A stretch of DNA of 21,046 nucleotides from a virus: positions 1 to 21,046 of the IMG/VR virus record IMGVR_UViG_3300046450_001225. One strand, given 5' to 3'. The position numbers and the translations under genes are program-made. This document shows positions 256 to 21,046 of this stretch, piece by piece. Every line of letters starts with the position of its first letter. The stretch's first letter is position 1. Under the pieces are notes generated by a model. That model was not told the origin of the DNA. It searched no databases and saw nothing but the letters and a program-made list of their open reading frames with translations.

Positions 256-326
256 GCGTTAGTGGTGTAATGGTAACACACCTGCTTGCCAAGCAGGAGA
301 CTTGGGTTCAATTCCCAGCTTTCGCA
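256..326 (+). tRNA. tRNA-Gly, anticodon GCC
   Basis: A 71-base cloverleaf can be drawn. D stem GTGT/ACAC; anticodon stem CCTGC/GCAGG around loop TTGCCAA (anticodon GCC at 287-290 region); four-base variable loop AGAC; T arm TTGGG/CCCAG around TTCAATT; discriminator A326 followed by genomic CC but no final A. The acceptor stem GCGTTAG/CTTTCGC has two adjacent U-U mismatches at pairs 4 and 5, so it is a weak stem and the tRNA may be decaying or need host processing. The opposite-strand HNH gene ends inside its T arm. Confidence 0.85.
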
Positions 327-877
327 CCTTGGTTGTTGTCAACGACCTTTTGACAAAACTCTACAAAATCGTCCAAAGACATATCTGTTTTAGCTAAATT
401 AGCTTCGCGAGTTGCTATGTTGCAGTTCTTTAACGAGTTATCTCCGCCTTTTGATACGGGAATTATATGGTCTAGATGCCAATCTTTAGTGTTGTCAAGA
501 TCAATCTTTTCACCCGTAAGGTAGCACTTGGGGGTTGAGCCAATTTTATTTATGAGTTCTTCGTAAGTAAATAGCGGCAATTCTTCTCTCCTTGTAAAGT
601 TGTTGACTTTGTTGCGGATGCGTAATTTAAGCTCCCTAGAAATAGGGTTTGTTGTTGGGACACTTTTCCTCTTAGAAAAACGGTCTATCTTTTTGCTGAT
701 GGTTATCATTGTTTTATTTGTTTCTCTATAGGCTTTTATTCGTTCTTTAACACCAGAGCCTAAATGATAACAGACGGTCCCCTTAGAGCATTTAAGTTCG
801 GCACATATTTCATTGTATGTTTTACCCTCTGCTCTCAAGTCTAAGATTTGTTGTTTTATGCCTCTTGGGGCTGTCAT
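308..877 (-). CDS. HNH homing-type endonuclease with N-terminal helix-turn-helix
   Basis: A 189-residue protein, the only clear gene on the minus strand. Residues 8-38 form a resolvase-like helix-turn-helix (ILDLRAEGKTYNEICAELKC, then SKGTVCYHL). A basic linker follows. The HNH nuclease lies at about 115-165: CYLTGEKI, then HLDHIIPVSKGGDNS with H134, D136 and H137, and the downstream asparagines of NCNIATREAN. Phage HNH proteins of this layout are usually free-standing homing endonucleases that nick or cut a site in related phages and carry their own gene in by repair. The ATG at 877 is preceded by GGAG seven bases upstream on the minus strand. Its last six codons overlap the 3' part of tRNA-Gly(GCC) on the other strand. 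Being antisense to its surroundings suggests independent insertion. Confidence 0.93.
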   Translation of the reverse strand: MTAPRGIKQQILDLRAEGKTYNEICAELKCSKGTVCYHLGSGVKERIKAYRETNKTMITISKKIDRFSKRKSVPTTNPISRELKLRIRNKVNNFTRREELPLFTYEELINKIGSTPKCYLTGEKIDLDNTKDWHLDHIIPVSKGGDNSLKNCNIATREANLAKTDMSLDDFVEFCQKVVDNNQGAKAGN

Positions 878-1065: not shown

Positions 1066-1545
1066 ATGGACAGTGACAGAGCATTAGAGATTCTTGCTGA
1101 GGAAATTGAAAAACGGGTTGGTAATAGCATCGACAAGAAAATAAACGATAAGGAATGGCATAGTATTTTACGAGACCCAAACATTGGGAAAGTTGTCGAG
1201 AGACAGTGGGGCTATTACAAGATCCTACATCAGGGTGATGGATACTCAGTAAAAGAGCTGACTATTCTCCCCGGCAAATCATTATCAGACCAGAGACACT
1301 TTAAGAGAGACGAGTATTGGTTTGTTCTCCAGGGTGAGCTTTGGGTTGATCTAGAATACGCCAAAACAAAAAAGTCGATCTACAGAAGTGCTGGTGCTCA
1401 CAAAAATACCCTTTTTATTACTAAGAGGACATGGCATAGACCATACAACGCTGGAAATAAAGATACAATCATCATCGAAACTTGGGTCGGTGACTCAACA
1501 GAAGAAGATATTGAGCGGCGAAACATAATATACCTTATTCTATAA
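1066..1545 (+). CDS. Cupin protein of the type II mannose-6-phosphate isomerase family
   Basis: A 159-residue protein whose cupin core starts near residue 65. Motif 1 is PGKSLSDQRHFKRDEYWFVL, with candidate metal ligands Q76, H78 and E83 and the closing G90. Motif 2 has H124 (TWHRPYN). The end, IIIETWVGDSTEEDIERR, matches the end of the C-terminal isomerase domain of bifunctional ManC-type mannose-6-phosphate isomerases (IEVQxGxxxxEDDIVR). Proteins of this kind interconvert fructose-6-phosphate and mannose-6-phosphate, or bind related sugars. The N-terminal 60 residues are a helical extension with no match I can name. The gene is followed after 17 bases by the first DUF1501 gene, suggesting one transcript and a shared role in sugar or surface chemistry. 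Substrate is not shown by the sequence. Confidence 0.85.
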   Translation: MDSDRALEILAEEIEKRVGNSIDKKINDKEWHSILRDPNIGKVVERQWGYYKILHQGDGYSVKELTILPGKSLSDQRHFKRDEYWFVLQGELWVDLEYAKTKKSIYRSAGAHKNTLFITKRTWHRPYNAGNKDTIIIETWVGDSTEEDIERRNIIYLIL

Positions 1546-1562
1546 TTTTCAGGAGAATAGCA

Positions 1563-2813
1563 ATGCTAGACATTAACTTTAGTCGAAGAGATTTTCTCAG
1601 AATCGGAGCGGGCTTTGGAGCTGGCTTTGGAGCGATTCCGTTTTCTGACGCCATAATGGCACAAGAGCAAATACTAATTCCGAATAATAGGTCTGTTGTA
1701 TGGGTATGGCTTGGTGGAGGCCCGACACAGTTCGAGACCTTTCACGCCCCAACCCAGTCAGTCCCCGACCCCTACAAGCCTGTGTCTGGTATTGTGACGC
1801 ATAAAAATGGCTTGGCATTCGGAGGCTTGTTTAAAGACCTAATCAAACAGGGTGACAATCTGACTGCGGTCAACTCCTTTTCTCATGGAGACTCATCCCA
1901 TCGACAGGCAACACACTGGATGATGACGGGACACCGCAACCCTAAAAGGGAGAATACTGCTGACTCAGAATATCCAGGCCACGGAGCTATTGCATCTTCA
2001 GTATTTGGCTCTAACCACCCTTCAAATGGAATGCCCGCCTATGTAAAACAGGGAAAGATTGAAGGAGAACAACCAACCTTTTTGGGTGGAGCACACAACC
2101 CCTTTGATCCGACCAATAAAGAAAATTTGACTCCCAGAGTGCCTACCAGCCGATTTTCAGAGAGAAAGGGTTTGCTTGACTCTTTAGACAGTCGCGGTAA
2201 AGTTTTCTCCCCAGACGCTGAATCATTCAGCAAGATAGGCAATACTGCCTATAATGTTATTCTTGGTAATGCGAAAGATGCATTCGATCTTGACCAAGAG
2301 CCGGAAGCGATGCGAGAAATGTATGGAAAGGGCGGCATTGGAGACCAAATGTTGCTTGCTCGTAGGCTGTCGCAGTTTGGAACTAAGTTTGTCACCGTTC
2401 ATTATGGCGGCTGGGACATGCATGGCAATATCAAAAATGCATTAGAGGGTAAAGTTCCCCCTCTTGACAAAGCTCTCGCGGCTTTTGTTAAGGATATTTA
2501 TCAAAGTGGAATGTCCGAAGATACCCTTCTTGTTGTTACCGGAGAGTTTGGAAGAACTAGGCTGAATGGTAACGGTGGCAGAGATCACTGGCCTTCCATC
2601 ACTCCTATGCTATTATCTGGCGGGAAATACGATCACGGTCGAGTCATTGGGAAGGCTGACAAATCCTATGTGCCAACAGAAGATAAGGTTGGGCCAATTG
2701 ATATTGCGGCAACACTGTTTGATCACTTTGAAATCGACAAGCAGATTCAAAGAACTGATCAAGGAGGAAGACCTAGATACCTACTCGAAGGAGAAGGAAA
2801 GTTGTTCTTATGA
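1563..2813 (+). CDS. DUF1501 protein 1, Tat-exported, sulfatase/phosphatase-like fold
   Basis: A 416-residue protein of the DUF1501 family, which is placed in the alkaline phosphatase/sulfatase superfamily; no specific reaction is established. A twin-arginine signal opens it (SRRDFLRIGAG at 7-17, then a glycine-rich hydrophobic stretch, with a possible cleavage near AMA/IMAQ at about 31-34), so export of folded protein is expected. Conserved blocks: WLGGGPTQFETF (49-60), GGWDMH (282-287), EFGRT (328-332) and GRDHW (339-343), the last three with likely metal ligands. It differs from its two neighbours where the usual DPKP or DLKP follows the first block: here it reads HAPT. ATG 1563 is preceded by AGGAG. 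The stop overlaps the next start. Three tandem divergent copies inside a phage-type genome are unusual. Confidence 0.93.
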   Translation: MLDINFSRRDFLRIGAGFGAGFGAIPFSDAIMAQEQILIPNNRSVVWVWLGGGPTQFETFHAPTQSVPDPYKPVSGIVTHKNGLAFGGLFKDLIKQGDNLTAVNSFSHGDSSHRQATHWMMTGHRNPKRENTADSEYPGHGAIASSVFGSNHPSNGMPAYVKQGKIEGEQPTFLGGAHNPFDPTNKENLTPRVPTSRFSERKGLLDSLDSRGKVFSPDAESFSKIGNTAYNVILGNAKDAFDLDQEPEAMREMYGKGGIGDQMLLARRLSQFGTKFVTVHYGGWDMHGNIKNALEGKVPPLDKALAAFVKDIYQSGMSEDTLLVVTGEFGRTRLNGNGGRDHWPSITPMLLSGGKYDHGRVIGKADKSYVPTEDKVGPIDIAATLFDHFEIDKQIQRTDQGGRPRYLLEGEGKLFL

Positions 2814-4066
2814 AAAGACGAAACTTTTTACACGCTGGTATCTTAGGCGGCTTTGGCCTATCTCTAGCTAGAGCCGATCAAAAATTCTACGACAGCAAAG
2901 AGGGGCCAGCTAAGAGCGTTATTTTCATATATCTACCCGGAGGAATGGCTCATCAGGAAACCCTAGACCCTAAACCATTCGCCCCGATAGAATATCGTGG
3001 ACCTCTTGGTAGCATAAGTACCAATGTTCCCGGTATCCGTATTGGTGAGCTGTTAAAAAACACAGCAAAGATCACAGACAAAATTTCTATAATTCGTAGC
3101 ATTACACACGGTGAAGCAGCTCATGAACGTGGCACACACAATATGTTTACTGGCTACAAACCTAGTCCAGCCCTTCAATACCCATCTATGGGTTCAGTGG
3201 TTGCACATGAGTTTGGATCTCGCAAGAACCTTCCGCCCTACGTCTGTATACCAAATCCACCTAATGAATTTGCGGGCACTGGATATTTAAGTAGTTCATA
3301 TTCTGGTTTTGGCTTAGGTTCCGATCCAGCAAGCGATGACTTTCAAGTTAGGGATTTGAAGGTTCCAGTTCCAGACGAAAGATTCAATAGAAGAAAAAGA
3401 GTTTTGGATATTGTTAACGCAGACTTTAACACAAAGCAAAACGCTGACTCTCTAGATGCTGTTAATTCCTTTTATAAAAAAGCATATAGCCTAATTGGTA
3501 GCGAACAGGCTCGTGATGCGTTCAACATGGAAAAGGAGTCTTCCGCTTTGAGGGATAAATACGGAAGAAACACTGCTGGTGCTCGAATGTTACTAGCTCG
3601 CCGCTTAGTAGAGGCTGGCACTAGATTCGTAACCCTCACTTATGGTGGTTGGGATATGCACAACTCTATCGCTGGCGGAATGAAAAACCAATTACCAGCA
3701 TTTGATCAGGGGTTTTCTACACTAATTGAAGATTTGCATGATCGCGGATTATTGGACTCTACACTTGTGTGCGTAGTCTCCGAATTCGGACGCACCCCAA
3801 AAATTAACGCAACCGCTGGGCGAGACCACTGGCCAAAGGTGTTTAGTACAATTATGGCTGGAGCAGGAATCAAACAAGGTATTACATACGGAACTTCAAA
3901 CGCCACGGCTAGTGATCCAGAAGAAAACCCTGTTTCCATAGAAGATTGGGCAGCAACTATCTACAATAGGCTGGGAATCACGGCTGACAAGGAGCTAATG
4001 GCTCCCGGAGACCGCCCAATAGAAATCGTTGACGGCGGTAAAATTATACAAAACTTAATCATATAA
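2810..4066 (+). CDS. DUF1501 protein 2, Tat-exported
   Basis: A 418-residue DUF1501 protein. The signal is very short before the twin arginine (MKRRNFLHAGILGGF, residues 1-15) and probably ends around LARA at 19-23. Family blocks follow in order: YLPGGMAHQETLDPKP, the HERGTHNMFTGYKPSP block with its histidines, LLARRLVEAGTRFVTL, GGWDMH, EFGRTPKINATAGRDHWP. These carry the acidic and histidine residues typical of the family. Its start overlaps the stop of the first copy by ATGA, so the two are translationally coupled. It is clearly related to but divergent from both neighbours, which argues for an old duplication or separate acquisitions rather than a fresh tandem copy. Known family members are exported proteins of unsettled function, often next to cytochrome-type DUF1549/DUF1553 proteins; no such partner is present here. 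Confidence 0.93.
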   Translation: MKRRNFLHAGILGGFGLSLARADQKFYDSKEGPAKSVIFIYLPGGMAHQETLDPKPFAPIEYRGPLGSISTNVPGIRIGELLKNTAKITDKISIIRSITHGEAAHERGTHNMFTGYKPSPALQYPSMGSVVAHEFGSRKNLPPYVCIPNPPNEFAGTGYLSSSYSGFGLGSDPASDDFQVRDLKVPVPDERFNRRKRVLDIVNADFNTKQNADSLDAVNSFYKKAYSLIGSEQARDAFNMEKESSALRDKYGRNTAGARMLLARRLVEAGTRFVTLTYGGWDMHNSIAGGMKNQLPAFDQGFSTLIEDLHDRGLLDSTLVCVVSEFGRTPKINATAGRDHWPKVFSTIMAGAGIKQGITYGTSNATASDPEENPVSIEDWAATIYNRLGITADKELMAPGDRPIEIVDGGKIIQNLII

Positions 4067-4094
4067 GAGCAGAAGCTGCCGGAGAAAATCAAAG

Positions 4095-5312
4095 ATGAAG
4101 TATACAAGACGGAACTTTCTGTCGTCACTAGCTGGTGTCGTCTCTTTAACCAAAGCACTGAAGGCTAATGAAGACAAATTAAAAAAGAACGGCAAATCAG
4201 CTATCTTACTGTGGATGGGGGGTGGACCATCCACTATGGACATCTGGGATCTCAAACCAGATTCTAAAACCGGCGGCCCATTTAGACCAATCTCCACATC
4301 TGGGGATGTTGAAATATGCGAACATATGCCATTGATGGCAAAGCAGATGCACAACATGGCTATCGTTCGCAGCATGAGTACTCGTGAAGCAGACCACATG
4401 CGAGGCAGATATTATATGCATACGGGCTATGTGCCTAATCCAAACATAACCCATCCAAGCTACGGTTCAGTTCTCTCAAATCAGCTAGACAGAGAGCTTA
4501 TGATACCCCAGTTTATATCTATAAACGGCGGAAGTATGGGACCTGGATTTTTAGGTGCGGAGTATGCACCACTGGTTTTGAATAGTGACGGAAATATACG
4601 AAATTTAAAGATGAAAATAGACGAAAGGTTTTATCAAAGAGCAGCAATGCTAGACATGATTGAAACCAATTTCATAAACTCTAACAGAGGATCAATGCCC
4701 AAAGAACACCAGAAGTTGTTGAAAAAGACATTTAACGTCCTAACTAGTACAGATATGGACGCCACAAAAGTAGCTAATGAACCTCAATCAGTGCGTGATA
4801 GATACGGAGATAACAACTTTGGTAAAGGGTGTCTGATGGCTAGACGCCTTGTTGAGGCCGGTGTTCCATTTATTGAGGTTGGCTTAGGTGGGTGGGACAA
4901 TCATCAAAATATTTTCCCCACATTAAAAGACACGAAACTCCCAGTATTAGATCGAGGAATGAGTGCTCTAATAGAAGACTTGGAGCAGCGAGGTCTTTTA
5001 AAAGATACTGTTATTATATGGATGGGGGAATTTAGCCGAACCCCACGGATTAATGCCAATGCTGGTCGTGATCACTGGGCAGCAAGCTGGAGTGTCGTGG
5101 TAGGAGGAGGAGGTATGAACGGAGGCATTTCTGTCGGGAGTACCAATGAAGACGGAAAGAGAGTAGAAGGCATGGCGTATTCGTCCCAAGACATAATGGC
5201 TTCTGTTTGTAACGCTCTAGACATTTCCCTTAAAACTACTTTTACAAGTAATAGCGGGAGACCCATGAAAATTGCAAACTCAGGAAGAGTTATAAAAGAG
5301 CTATTTGCTTAA
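4095..5312 (+). CDS. DUF1501 protein 3, Tat-exported, closest to the planctomycete form
   Basis: A 405-residue DUF1501 protein with twin-arginine signal TRRNFLSSLAGVVSL (4-18) and a possible cleavage near ALKA (22-25). The opening blocks LLWMGGGPSTMDIWDLKP, then ICEHMPLMAKQM, then SMSTREADHMRGRYYMHTGY read like chromosomal planctomycete members as I recall them. GGWDNH, EFSRTPRINANAGRDHW and the family C-terminus are also intact. GGAG at 4082-4085 lies about nine bases ahead of the ATG. A 28-base gap separates it from copy 2, while copies 1 and 2 overlap. Of the three it is the strongest pointer to a Planctomycetes host or donor. Enzyme activity and substrate cannot be read from the sequence. 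Confidence 0.94.
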   Translation: MKYTRRNFLSSLAGVVSLTKALKANEDKLKKNGKSAILLWMGGGPSTMDIWDLKPDSKTGGPFRPISTSGDVEICEHMPLMAKQMHNMAIVRSMSTREADHMRGRYYMHTGYVPNPNITHPSYGSVLSNQLDRELMIPQFISINGGSMGPGFLGAEYAPLVLNSDGNIRNLKMKIDERFYQRAAMLDMIETNFINSNRGSMPKEHQKLLKKTFNVLTSTDMDATKVANEPQSVRDRYGDNNFGKGCLMARRLVEAGVPFIEVGLGGWDNHQNIFPTLKDTKLPVLDRGMSALIEDLEQRGLLKDTVIIWMGEFSRTPRINANAGRDHWAASWSVVVGGGGMNGGISVGSTNEDGKRVEGMAYSSQDIMASVCNALDISLKTTFTSNSGRPMKIANSGRVIKELFA

Positions 5313-5496
5313 TATTAACACAATCAATGATGATGGATCATGGCGTTGTATTGTCTCAACCAGTGAAGCATGTAAAGAGAAGGAATATCAAGAGACCATT
5401 GCTCGAAAGTTTGAGTACATGACTTTTCGAGACCTTCTCAAGTTTTGGAAGAAGCATTGCCAGCATCACAACTTTATTATTAAGTGGTTTTTATGA
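5305..5496 (+). CDS. Small ORF of uncertain reality between DUF1501 protein 3 and the phosphoesterase
   Basis: Up to 63 residues, reading LNINTINDDGSWRCIVST and ending FIIKWFL. It fills the 180 bases between its neighbours and its stop overlaps the likely start of the next gene as ATGA, which favours a translated gene. Against it: no ATG near the 5' end. TTG 5305 (AAGAG five bases upstream, overlapping the previous gene) is one option; the only ATG lies at 5419 and would leave 25 residues. Composition is rich in charged and aromatic residues. No family recognised. It may be a decayed gene. Confidence 0.4.
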   Translation: MLNINTINDDGSWRCIVSTSEACKEKEYQETIARKFEYMTFRDLLKFWKKHCQHHNFIIKWFL

Positions 5497-16910: not shown

Positions 16911-18590
16911 ATGATTTCTTTTATCACAACTGACTATTCACTATGTTCAACGTTTAAGCCTGAGAACATGAGTAATCAATGTATTTTGTGTGACACAAAC
17001 CTTAGTGGAGTGGTGGAATACTACAACGAGTGTAAGAAGAAGAAGCTTAAGCCAGTTATTGGGTATCGTGGTGATGAAATCTATGTGGCCCTAAATAAGG
17101 AAAACTATGATGAGTTGTTGCAGGCATTCTCAAATGATAGAGTTCCCGACGTATTGACTATTTTAGGTGCTCCATTTAGTAAGCTAGCGAATCTAGTTAC
17201 TGATAGTTATTACCCATACGCCCCAAATGAGGATGCTTGGGAACTAGCTAAGGAATATATTCGAGGATTAGGTGCCACAGCTAACACAATGATTGGGATT
17301 ACCCCATACAGCTCTGAGGCTGACAACGGCCTGAGAGACCTTCTAAGAGACCTAGCGAAGCATCTAGGACTCAAGACATGTGTGGTAGATAGCGTCCATT
17401 ACGACTCATATACGGAGGTCTCAGGGGAGACTGAGTACGAACCCCACAAAGATCACCAGATTTTGGTCTGTCATAGGACAAAAAAGAACATTGATCAGTC
17501 CGCAGAGATGCCTGATGAGTACAAGCGTTTCTTTTTAAGTAAACAATACTTCCCACAGGACTGGTCAAACCTAAACGAGTACGATGGCTGTCGCTGGATC
17601 GTTGACACAGTAGAAGAGTATGAGATTTTAGCTGAACCTCAACTTCCTCACTTTGACAATGCTACAAAAACCTTAACTAATCTAGCTAGAGAAGGCTGGA
17701 GAGAAAAGGAAATGTCGAAGCATGCAGACTGGCCAGTGTATAGAGACAGGATTAAAGAAGAGATTGGGGTTATTAATCAGTCTGGCTTCTCTGCTTACTT
17801 CTTAGTATTAGAGGACGTATGTAAATGGATTGATGCACAGGGCTGGATGAGAGGTCATGGTCGTGGTTCTGCTGGTGGTTGTCTAATCTCATATTTGACA
17901 GGTATTACTAAAGTAGACCCTCTGCATTATGATTTGCTTTTCGAGCGTTTTTTCTCAGAGGACAGAGCTAAAGCACGTCAGTTACCCGATATTGATATTG
18001 ACGTTCCTAAGTTTAAAAGACAGGCTATCTTCACATATCTACAAGAGACGTATGGACATGACTCTGTTGCACAGATGGTAACCTTCGCTGCATTACAGGG
18101 GAGATCAGCGTTAACTGCGACACTCAAGTTTAATGATTCATGTAGCTTTAGTGAGATTAAAGAGATTACTGAGCTATTACCCCACAAGGATAAAGTTAGT
18201 GATCAGATGGAGACTGTTAGTGAGCATAGCTTGATTCGCTGGACTCTGGACTACTTACCTGAGAAGTTAGCTAACTATGCTAGAGTTGAGGATGGTAAAA
18301 TTGTAGGAGACTACGCTCTTGAGTTTGAACAGGCTATTCGTCTGGAGAAGCTCAAAGTAGAGACTAGTAAGCACGCTTCGGCCATTATCGTGTATAACGG
18401 CAAGATTCAAGATGTGTGTCCTATGATTAAGGATAAGTCAAGCGATGAAAAGATTACTGGATTATCAATGTCTGATGGTGAGGCAGTTGGGCTTGTCAAG
18501 TTGGATTTGCTCGGGCTCGCAACGCTGGATAAGTTGATGCTTATTAATAAGTTACTAAAGGCGAAAGAGGAGAAGAATGTCAAGTCTTGA
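16911..18590 (+). CDS. dnaE: DNA polymerase III alpha subunit (DnaE), N-terminal part of a split gene
   Basis: 559 residues covering the PHP and palm regions. Residues 1-240 align with the PHP domain but are degenerate: the usual HSxYS and TDHGN metal motifs read TTDYS and CDTNLSG, while SVHY (161-164) remains. Palm motifs: GRGSAGGCLISYLTGITK (317-334), LFERFF, then LPDIDID with D360 and D362 (E. coli D401, D403), SKHASAIIV, and VKLDLLGLATL with D532 (E. coli D555). So the full catalytic triad is in this half. It stops at KAKEEKNVKS, just where the linker to the fingers begins. The start has GGGA seven bases upstream. The rest of the protein begins at 20019 after a ~1.4 kb insertion. No intein end is seen. 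Confidence 0.93.
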   Translation: MISFITTDYSLCSTFKPENMSNQCILCDTNLSGVVEYYNECKKKKLKPVIGYRGDEIYVALNKENYDELLQAFSNDRVPDVLTILGAPFSKLANLVTDSYYPYAPNEDAWELAKEYIRGLGATANTMIGITPYSSEADNGLRDLLRDLAKHLGLKTCVVDSVHYDSYTEVSGETEYEPHKDHQILVCHRTKKNIDQSAEMPDEYKRFFLSKQYFPQDWSNLNEYDGCRWIVDTVEEYEILAEPQLPHFDNATKTLTNLAREGWREKEMSKHADWPVYRDRIKEEIGVINQSGFSAYFLVLEDVCKWIDAQGWMRGHGRGSAGGCLISYLTGITKVDPLHYDLLFERFFSEDRAKARQLPDIDIDVPKFKRQAIFTYLQETYGHDSVAQMVTFAALQGRSALTATLKFNDSCSFSEIKEITELLPHKDKVSDQMETVSEHSLIRWTLDYLPEKLANYARVEDGKIVGDYALEFEQAIRLEKLKVETSKHASAIIVYNGKIQDVCPMIKDKSSDEKITGLSMSDGEAVGLVKLDLLGLATLDKLMLINKLLKAKEEKNVKS

Positions 18591-18984
18591 AAAAAACGGC
18601 CCAATCCTGTTTGTGAAACCTTTTGCATCAGCGGACGCCTTAGAGATTGGTTCTTGTTTAAATGCACAAGAAGCTTATGTCCTAGAGAGAGTCTATCCTG
18701 ATTATTCTGTAACCTGCCTAAACAAAGACGGAAAGCTCAATAAGCAACACTTGGGCCAGTTTAAGACAGAGTCTGCTCTTTTTCAAGAGATTGTGCTGAT
18801 GGGAAAACAGTGTGCTGATTTATTGAGGGTAGACTATATCGAGTGGAGCAAAACACTATATCGTGCAGGAGATGAGAACCTTGCGTTTGTTTGGTGTACT
18901 CCCGCTTTTGGAAAGATCATATCTTCTCCTAAAAATCTGAAGAGATTTCGCAGCATTGTGGAGGAAATCAGTGAAAAGATTTAA
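18577..18984 (+). CDS. Hypothetical protein, 135 aa, inside the polymerase split
   Basis: No family recognised. A soluble mixed protein starting MSSLEKNGPILFVKPFASAD, with a strand-rich middle (EAYVLERVYPDYSVTCLNKD) and a helical end (KNLKRFRSIVEEISEKI). It has an AGGAG a few bases ahead of ATG 18577 and overlaps the end of the polymerase N-part by 14 bases. Its position between the two polymerase halves makes it either cargo of an inserted element or a gene that moved into an existing gap. Confidence 0.72.
   Translation: MSSLEKNGPILFVKPFASADALEIGSCLNAQEAYVLERVYPDYSVTCLNKDGKLNKQHLGQFKTESALFQEIVLMGKQCADLLRVDYIEWSKTLYRAGDENLAFVWCTPAFGKIISSPKNLKRFRSIVEEISEKI
18960..18964 (+). promoter_or_regulatory. 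Ribosome binding site selecting GTG 18971
   Basis: GGAGG lies six bases ahead of GTG 18971, the standard spacing. The in-frame ATG at 18956 lies before this site and has none of its own, so the shorter GTG-start product is favoured. Confidence 0.7.
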
Positions 18985-19174
18985 AGTTTTCTTATGTGCG
19001 TATGATGGACAAATCAACACAAGACTATTTGAGCTATTAGCACTAGACGAAGAACTGGTTAGATCAGTGGCTAGTTTAACTATTGACACGATGTGGCCAG
19101 ACTCAACCAGTTCCAGTATACTTATTGATGAGAGTAGACTGTGCCTTGATATGTTAGAACCGAGTATGAATTAA
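18971..19174 (+). CDS. Small hypothetical protein, 67 aa, GTG start
   Basis: No family recognised. It reads MKRFKVFLCAYDGQINTRLF and ends LDMLEPSMN. The start is set by the GGAGG noted above and overlaps the previous gene by 14 bases. The frame ends at TAA 19172-19174, where an HNH-like fragment opens in another frame. A frameshift joining the two is possible in principle (CLDMLEP would sit where many HNH proteins have SLDRID), but the upstream residues show no HNH features, so I treat it as separate. Confidence 0.6.
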   Translation: MKRFKVFLCAYDGQINTRLFELLALDEELVRSVASLTIDTMWPDSTSSSILIDESRLCLDMLEPSMN

Positions 19175-19304
19175 TGACAAACATCAAATCGAGGGGAACG
19201 TACAGTGGGTACACAAGGCCGTTAACCAATTAAAAATGCAGCTAAAAAACGACGTATTTTTAGACTGGATAGAAAAAATCTATAACTATAGGATAAAACA
19301 ATGA
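19170..19304 (+). pseudogene. Remnant of an HNH homing endonuclease C-terminus
   Basis: A frame open from after TGA 19167 to TGA 19302-19304 reads INDKHQIEGNVQWVHKAVNQ and then LKMQLKNDVFLDWIEKIY. The GNVQWVHKAVNQLK core followed by an FLDWIEKI helix matches the ends of phage HNH homing endonucleases (GNVQWVHKDINxMK...F...C..I). There is no upstream start (only ATG 19236, leaving 22 residues), and the catalytic HNH part is missing. Its stop overlaps the start of the exonuclease gene as ATGA. It lies between the polymerase halves, the usual kind of target for homing endonucleases. The match is from memory of the family, not from a search. Confidence 0.68.
19290..19298 (+). promoter_or_regulatory. 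AGGATAAAA leader of the exonuclease gene, repeated before the second polymerase half
   Basis: The nine bases AGGATAAAA lie two bases before ATG 19301. The identical nine bases lie immediately before ATG 20019 (20010-20018). Each supplies an AGGA ribosome site. The shared leader may be chance, or may come from one copied junction when the polymerase gene was split. Confidence 0.5.
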
Positions 19305-20011
19305 AAAAATCACATATCGCCGTGCTAGATCTAGAATCGAGCGGCCTTTCTCCTATCAGCGTAGGAGAATATAAAAAGGCACAGATTACAGAAATATCCA
19401 TAACGATGATGGACGCCAACACGTTGGAGATAAGCAAAAATAACACGTTCAACAGCCTCGTTTGGATAGAGCAAGACCTAGACAGGTGCGAAGAACTGGG
19501 GTTAGAGCCCCTATCTGATAAACTAGCCGAAAAAACCCATAAGAACAAAGACGAGCTTTTAAAGGCCCCAAAGGAAGAAATTGTTTGGGAGAAGATGAAG
19601 CAGTTCTTGACCAAGTTTAAGACTGGAAATTCAAAGTGGAACCGGCCAATTTTATCAGGTTGGAACGTATCTGGATACGATCGAAAGCTTCTGGACGAAA
19701 GGTGTCGTCGGTACAAAGACTGGGATGAAAAGACTCAGCAAAACACTTTATTTAGTCCCAAACTAGAGATAGATATGATGTATTTCTACTATTTATTGGT
19801 AGAGAATATCCCCAGTGTAAATTCTATCTCTCTTGATAATGCTCGTACAATGTATGATCTGCCCTCGACAGACTTAAACCACACGGCAAAAATCGACACA
19901 CTAGAAACGGCTTTAATCTTGCAAAAAAATATGCGGTGGTTACGCAAGTTATCCTCAAGAAAGAAGTTCGAAGGAACTATGTCTAACACCAATATTAATG
20001 ATTACCTTTAG
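19301..20011 (+). CDS. DEDDh 3'-5' exonuclease (DnaQ-like), candidate proofreading subunit
   Basis: A 236-residue DnaQ-fold exonuclease with all catalytic motifs: ExoI VLDLESSGL (D10, E12), ExoII LSGWNVSGYDRKLL (N122, D127), ExoIII HTAKIDTLETA (H194, D199). The ExoII glycine-tryptophan in place of GHN is a small departure. DnaE-type polymerases have no intrinsic proofreading exonuclease and use a separate epsilon protein or the PHP domain. Here the PHP is degenerate and this gene lies between the two polymerase ORFs, so it is likely the proofreader. The tail (MSNTNINDYL) has no clear clamp-binding motif. The start has AGGA seven bases ahead and overlaps the HNH fragment's stop. Its TAG ends eight bases before the next start. 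RNase T-like tasks remain possible. Confidence 0.87.
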   Translation: MKKSHIAVLDLESSGLSPISVGEYKKAQITEISITMMDANTLEISKNNTFNSLVWIEQDLDRCEELGLEPLSDKLAEKTHKNKDELLKAPKEEIVWEKMKQFLTKFKTGNSKWNRPILSGWNVSGYDRKLLDERCRRYKDWDEKTQQNTLFSPKLEIDMMYFYYLLVENIPSVNSISLDNARTMYDLPSTDLNHTAKIDTLETALILQKNMRWLRKLSSRKKFEGTMSNTNINDYL

Positions 20012-20018
20012 GATAAAA
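20010..20018 (+). promoter_or_regulatory. AGGATAAAA ribosome site of the second polymerase half
   Basis: AGGA lies five bases ahead of ATG 20019, and the full nine bases equal those before the exonuclease gene. The site shows that the second half has its own translation start and need not be read through or spliced from the first. Confidence 0.6.
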
Positions 20019-21046
20019 ATGATTGATTTCTACAGTCTGCCAAGCGACAAAAAAACCTGGGATTTGCTTGCAACAGGCAAGACCGCTGGTGTCTTCCAGC
20101 TAGATAATGAAAACTTAGGCGGTAGATTTGCTCGAAAGATTCGTCCAGAGAGCATTGAGGATATTGCTGCTATTACCACTATTATCCGTCCTGGTACATT
20201 AAATGCTGAGATGGAAGATGGTGAGTCAGCAGCTATTCATTATGAGAGACGACATAGAGGCGTTGAGCCAGTTGAAAGCTTTCATGAGTTGTTGGACGAC
20301 ATCCTGTTAGACACACAGCAGATTATTCTCTATCAGGAACAGACAATTAGAATTGCTAGGCAACTAGCTGGTTTTGATGGTGCTCAAGCTATGAAACTGA
20401 TGAAAGGTATCGGTAAGAAAAAAGCCGACCTTATCATGGCACTTGAGAAAGACTTTGTATCAGGCTGTGTTAATAACAACATTAAAGAGGAAGACGCACA
20501 GAAAATCTTTGACGTTATCAAGAAGTCTGCACGTTACTCCTTTAATAAGTCACATGCTGTGTGTTACTCTGAGTTGAGCTATTGTGATGCGTTTGCTAAG
20601 GCTAATGAGACAATCACATTCTATGTTGCTTCATTACAGATGGCTAGACATAAGACTGATAGCAAGACTCAAATCAAGAAGCTAGTTAAAGAGGCGGCAA
20701 CACTAGATATTGTATGTAAGCCACCAAGACTAGAAAATTGCTATGTGGATTTCACCGAGGTAGGAGACAAGATTTACTTTGGTATCTCTAACATTAAGGG
20801 GATTGGAGAAAAGAAGGCTCAAGAGATTGTAGATATGGCACCCGGACCAAAGACTTGGTACGAATGCCTGTTTCAAATCTTGGCGGCAGGAAAATCCACA
20901 GCACTAGGGTCTATTAAGGCTGGAGTGTTTGCTAGATACAAGGTTCCTGTTCGTCGTCAAATTGATGACTTTAATAACCTGAGTCTCCTATCTATTGGAG
21001 AAAAAAAGTATGCTATTGAGCACTATCGAGAGTTTACTGATGCTGT
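20019..21046 (+). CDS. dnaE: DNA polymerase III alpha subunit (DnaE), C-terminal part of a split gene, runs off the window
   Basis: At least 342 residues without a stop at the right edge. It begins MIDFYSLPSDKKTWDLLATG, which aligns with the IPLDDxxTxxLLxxG block that directly follows the end of the first half in intact DnaE. Then come TAGVFQLDN, TTIIRPGTL, ILYQEQTIRIA, KLMKGIGKKKADLI, ARYSFNKSHAVCYSELSY and the second helix-hairpin-helix GISNIKGIGEKKAQEIV. These are the fingers, clamp-proximal and DNA-binding parts. The FNKSH site, where the cyanobacterial DnaE split intein lies, is uninterrupted, so this is a different break point. The clamp-binding tail and OB domain would lie beyond the window. 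It must assemble with the product of 16911-18590 to form a working enzyme. Confidence 0.93.
   Translation, partial: MIDFYSLPSDKKTWDLLATGKTAGVFQLDNENLGGRFARKIRPESIEDIAAITTIIRPGTLNAEMEDGESAAIHYERRHRGVEPVESFHELLDDILLDTQQIILYQEQTIRIARQLAGFDGAQAMKLMKGIGKKKADLIMALEKDFVSGCVNNNIKEEDAQKIFDVIKKSARYSFNKSHAVCYSELSYCDAFAKANETITFYVASLQMARHKTDSKTQIKKLVKEAATLDIVCKPPRLENCYVDFTEVGDKIYFGISNIKGIGEKKAQEIVDMAPGPKTWYECLFQILAAGKSTALGSIKAGVFARYKVPVRRQIDDFNNLSLLSIGEKKYAIEHYREFTDA

Follow-up and report, generated by a model that had tools for sequence, protein, structure and literature searches.

Among uncultivated, mostly aquatic phages, a large group encodes its DnaE-type DNA polymerase in two ORFs, A and B, separated at the joint between palm and fingers, and a gene for a DnaQ-like exonuclease, X, lies between them. 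This A-X-B order was found at 228 loci examined, which hold 158 distinct A sequences. A single polypeptide is the usual, though not strictly defining, state of a C-family polymerase; here two ORFs encode it at all 228 loci. Since the cut is clean and an exonuclease gene sits between the halves, the enzyme is very probably an assembled complex and not one chain. We privilege with considerable confidence the hypothesis that A and B are separate stable polypeptides of one C-family replicative polymerase, which would associate without a peptide bond while X provides proofreading. Physical assembly of A with B, activity of the pair and binding of X are what we infer from the genes.

The two halves and the break between them

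The window, the whole stretch of 21,046 bases analysed, is an IMG/VR virus record whose features are compiled in Table 1. The sequence-only reading of this DNA had described a DnaE-type polymerase in two ORFs with a separate start for each half, and both are present as described: purine-rich stretches lie upstream of the starts (AGGGAACAACTATG for A, AGGATAAAAATG for B) and A has its own stop. That reading overlooked the three ORFs, the exonuclease gene among them, that fill the separation of about 1.43 kb between A and B. The second ORF that it reported is real, but its truncation at the contig end had also gone unseen: starting at the ATG at 20019, 342 of about 503 residues are present and the rest is lost. 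The complete B is 503 aa long in the relative L003 (L003:11396-12907).

Table 1. Features of the window discussed in the text (positions in the 21,046-base record)
Feature	Length	Position	Strand	Remarks
HNH endonuclease with helix-turn-helix end		308-877	-	between two tRNA-Gly genes
RecA-like gene, DnaB-like helicase, Toprim primase, dNMP kinase, PD-(D/E)XK nuclease		before A		
DnaE-A (PHP domain and palm/thumb, C-family Pol III alpha)	559 aa	16911..18590	+	Pfam
ORF U	135 aa	18577..18984	+	overlaps the end of A; 51% identity in L003
Break region		18591..20018		U, small ORF and X inside; without intron, without intein
Small ORF	about 67 aa	18972..19174	+	conserved in L003
X, DnaQ-like DEDDh 3'-5' exonuclease	236 aa	19301..20011	+	Pfam RNase_T, PHROG 192
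DnaE-B (fingers, FNKSH block, helix-hairpin-helix)		20019..21046	+	Pfam PF17657 (DNA_pol3_finger), 2.9e-32

Window A matches PF07733 (DNA_pol3_alpha) at 3.7e-61 as well as PF02811 (PHP). It carries the catalytic aspartates D360, D362 and D532 and has a C-terminal helix after the segment VKLDLLG. ORF U has no Pfam or PHROG match, and the region of the small ORF (18995-19189) shares 79% nucleotide identity with L003. The active-site aspartates had been placed all in the first half and the fingers and helix-hairpin-helix (HhH) parts in the second; Pfam and the catalytic columns of 83/83 representatives agree with this. Pfam, PHROG and Foldseek assignments show that the domain order PHP, palm, thumb, fingers, HhH, OB is retained across the two chains, the C-terminal OB-like part being visible only in L003 B because window B is truncated.

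When A and B of L003 are joined in silico, the product aligns with Taq Pol III alpha without gaps through the junction; the alignment with E. coli alpha opens a gap of 4 residues there. In the coordinates of PHROG 405, a profile of intact DnaE, the last position covered by window A is 619 and the first covered by L003 B is 623. The palm-fingers break is clean and no block is lost, as the sequence-only reading had supposed in stating that almost no residues were missing: a large missing block was looked for in these comparisons with Taq, E. coli and PHROG 405, and none was found. The first ORF was also said to stop just after the block of the third catalytic aspartate (KxDxL; E. coli K553-D555), and 13-33 residues follow that block in 86 representatives. 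Likewise the second ORF does open close to the next conserved block, with B starting 4-15 residues ahead of the D-KTW block in most members and 28-39 residues ahead of it in a subgroup. In measurable intact chains the same linker is about 24-39 residues long. By alignment to E. coli the break falls near residue 580-590, which we take to be just past the palm, given the domain boundaries that we assume for 2HNH.

The subgroup with the longer start (L210, L214, L222, L227, L230, L234, L236-L238, L240-L242, L246, L250, L255, L257, L259, L263 and L264) has an N-terminal extension of B of about 30-40 aa, with a conserved CGCxF-like motif and one further Cys. This extension at the broken end of B is possibly a small zinc-binding docking element.

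Spread and origins of the A-X-B arrangement

The same split, which the sequence-only reading proposed to look for in related genomes, was found first in L003 (75/81% identical) and then widely. L003 is a 64.8-kb contig in which A is followed by a TagD-like ORF, U and a small ORF, then by X and B. It was the only locus recovered by single-sequence scans of viral contigs; a scan with an alignment of X then opened up the family and yielded 80 loci, all with A-X-B order where the sequence sufficed (L077 ends before B). Recruitment through X is biased, so the scan was repeated with B alone, and A-X-B order is present in 80/80 of the nearest relatives that it returned. Pairwise identity falls to 31% for A, 29% for B and 26% for X, and the distance matrices of A and B are correlated (r = 0.88). 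No cultured phage in INPHARED exceeds 60% identity, and the matches to X there are Bacteroides phages only, at about 26-28%. A SAR202 MAG includes the contig of one A-X-B member, and a Flavobacteriales MAG that of another; both contigs are possibly mis-binned.

The distance between A and B differs from member to member, and the interval gathers cargo genes, which code for an epimerase, UDP-glucose dehydrogenase, adenine methylase, UDG and HTH proteins. The idea that a homing endonuclease generally caused the break is unsupported because the ORFs between A and B vary.

In a careful tree of 49 rows the A-X-B group, including L006, forms a clade with 100/100 support. The two-ORF DnaE of Corynebacterium phage P1201 is sister to the intact DnaE of PotatoChip (100/100), and the broken DnaE of L008 is sister to the intact DnaE of Sundance (100/99). 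Since each has an intact DnaE as its sister, the same linker was broken at least three times. A single origin of all two-ORF DnaE is rejected (AU p = 7e-116), as is a grouping of L008 with the main A-X-B clade (AU p = 0.008). A common origin is not rejected for the two-ORF DnaE of phage phiT1 (AU p = 0.23), which is perhaps a further independent palm-fingers break. L006 is nested inside the A-X-B clade in both the DnaE and the X trees, a placement which suggests that its gene was re-fused from the split state; a tree that keeps it outside the split clade, as an unbroken sister, is less favoured but not rejected (p = 0.075). Within this lineage the A-X-B break probably arose once.

A probable two-chain polymerase with its own exonuclease

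The catalytic aspartate columns (E. coli D401/D403/D555) are kept in A of 83/83 representatives and of the window, the same 83/83 show no change in K553 or in the GS of the GRGS block, and the fingers block is strictly kept. A, X and B are apparently under purifying selection, with dN/dS about 0.007-0.037 among pairs with estimable dS and some change; the values are approximate because dS is near saturation, mostly >1, and several pairs from the same contigs are repeated in the list. AlphaFold2 folds each half confidently alone (pLDDT 87.6 for A, 88.0 for L003 B), and Foldseek matches A to E. coli and Taq alpha and L003 B to Pol III alpha. A census of the Pfam families of A, B and C polymerases gave one PF07733, one PF17657 and no PolA or PolB in 12/12 A-X-B virus records searched (65-224 kb). 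The A+B pair is the only recognisable A/B/C-family polymerase in these records, which are linear fragments by their IMG/VR classes, so that a second polymerase could lie outside them. The sole record with an additional intact DnaE and a PolA is the SAR202 MAG, a bacterial bin.

Window X matches PF00929 (RNase_T) at 5.5e-05, its 24.2 bits lying just above the cut-off of 24, and falls in PHROG 192, 'DNA polymerase exonuclease subunit', at 2.2e-13. Its DEDDh residues D10, E12, D127, H194 and D199 are kept in 83/83 representatives. The gap from X to B is 7 nt in the window and the two genes overlap in many relatives (median spacing -4 nt; 55 of the measured members overlapping or <=30 nt apart); X thus often appears positioned for translational coupling to B. 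The metal ligands of the PHP domain are lost in the window and in many relatives, while they are seemingly kept in roughly 25. This loss fits a role of X as proofreader, and X is probably the proofreading subunit that replaces the PHP domain.

We propose that these phages, with genomes of roughly 100-220 kb, would build their polymerase from DnaE-A (PHP, palm, thumb) and DnaE-B (fingers, HhH, OB fold), with the gene of the DnaQ-type X held in the same operon between the two. A and B would be made separately and joined noncovalently through the palm-fingers interface, which is intramolecular in ordinary DnaE; X would probably be part of this assembly and supply its proofreading. The break probably came about through an insertion into, or a fission of, a surface linker that was broken independently in other phages too. 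Noncovalent reassembly is the most likely reading and has a precedent in gp43 of Aeromonas phage 25, a split family-B polymerase whose two proteins are reported to co-purify and to be active (PMC2988022). A bolder version, which we entertain but consider doubtful, has palm, fingers and X forming an obligate multi-subunit replicase that is ancestral in a large phage clade, X, whose gene immediately precedes B in most members, helping to bridge or gate the assembly and the linker acting as a recurrent joint of fission and re-fusion, as exemplified by the re-fused L006 and by L202, where DnaE is in three pieces.

Phage polymerase genes often contain group I introns, and the 1.4 kb could be one, removed at the RNA level to restore a single reading frame. 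Rfam did recover, as a positive control, the group I intron that Alicyclobacillus phage KKP_3916 carries in its DnaE region (L019:2700-3033), but at the gathering threshold it reported none in the window, L003 and seven other A-X-B loci. Lowering the threshold to E <= 1 on the break gave sub-threshold matches only, the one intron match of the window being weak and scoring 14.9 bits against a cut-off of 50. Moreover, A, X and B overlap or are separated by two gaps of <=30 nt in ten members, leaving almost no non-coding DNA, and in all cases A ends at a stop and B opens with a start of its own. RNA-level splicing, which the sequence-only reading had named as a danger to its claim, is very improbable. 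Sequencing error, also named there, is excluded by conservation of the break over 158 distinct A sequences. The record is a metagenomic contig and B runs off its end; invariant active sites and low dN/dS nevertheless argue, with the shared break, against an assembly artefact or a decaying pseudogene, to which we attach next to no probability.

No more credible than an artefact is a cryptic split intein that trans-splices A to B, even if the DnaE of the same clade does carry split inteins at other sites: L006 and L202 have one at GRG|S, L102 one at FNK|S. In L006 (L006:2783-7533; also in L127) an ORF lies between the intein halves at GRG|S (N-intein CFLPDTNVK..., C-intein ...VEGLGVHN|S), palm and fingers are in one ORF, and X is upstream. 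In L102 (L102:8297-11144) the B half is split at FNK|SH with split-intein ends, presumably about three residues from the cyanobacterial DnaE intein site. At the palm-fingers break, little sequence is left: the residues after KxDxL in A number 13-33, and B offers 4-15, or 28-39 with CGCxF. The searches that bring up the split inteins of L006, L202 and L102 detect no N-intein after A and no C-intein HN/SN end before B; in L202 (L202:3742-8518) intein ends flank GRG|S, and the palm-fingers junction lacks them. The sequence-only reading was right that intein ends are absent from the break and that its site is not FNKSH. Finally, the host polymerase might copy the genome while A and B have other roles, such as repair. 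The degenerate PHP metal site of the window would suit such roles, but the strict conservation of catalytic residues and fingers block, together with the DnaB-like helicase, Toprim primase, RecA-like and dNMP kinase genes alongside, makes this unlikely. The two-chain polymerase with X as proofreader is the reading that we retain.

Known split polymerases and further observations

Split phage polymerases of families B and A are already known, as is a cyanobacterial DnaE with a split intein. Gene 43 of the T4-like Aeromonas phages 25 and 44RR likewise divides a phage replicative polymerase between two ORFs whose products are not spliced. It differs in belonging to family B and in the homing endonuclease or untranslated spacer associated with the split, which is reported in individual phages (PMC2988022), whereas in A-X-B it is an old lineage trait. 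The OM43 phages MEP401 and MEP402 have a split family-A polymerase, shared by most of group I (PMC10580990); as in A-X-B a small ORF separates its two ORFs, but the exonuclease domain is fused to the N-terminal half. Cyanobacteria also use two genes for DnaE, whose products are joined by protein trans-splicing at another site, whereas A-X-B has no intein. According to GenBank annotation the same palm-fingers linker is broken in P1201 (gp59/gp58) and in Rossellomorea phage phiT1 (gp20/gp18), which, unlike A-X-B, have no exonuclease between the halves; P1201 is an independent case, grouping with intact DnaE. The open literature that was searched yielded no account of a phage DnaE split without splicing, and other papers may describe one. 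Within that literature, the clade-wide splicing-free split of DnaE, the nested exonuclease gene and the recurrent fission at one joint appear to be new.

If the two-chain reading is true, a replicative DnaE can persist as two proteins, with no protein splicing to join them, through deep evolutionary time. The repeatedly used palm-fingers break point would then offer natural split points for the assembly of Pol III alpha from parts and a route to testing how palm and fingers cooperate. The A-X-B gene order is a marker for a widespread group of uncultivated phages, whose polymerase is otherwise logged as fragments by gene callers.

Other interruptions and annotations were noted in DnaE genes. 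The DnaE of Microbacterium phage Hiddenleaf (L032:2008-5359) is annotated as ORFs of 345 and 767 aa, broken upstream of the palm. The polymerase pieces of KKP_3916 are annotated as hypothetical proteins. In L007, from the same clade as L006, L202 and L102, the RPG block of the fingers is followed by a contiguous intein that contains an HNH-like motif (L007:5026-7380).

Elsewhere in the window, positions 1201-5328 hold three DUF1501 genes in tandem and the greater part of a cupin/mannose-6-phosphate-isomerase-like gene, adjoining a tRNA-Gly. The 4128 bp of this segment match the relative G001 (L270:4690-8817) at 98.2% identity, compared with 72-84% for the other window sequence shared with G001. 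The cassette is apparently a sharply bounded recent exchange.
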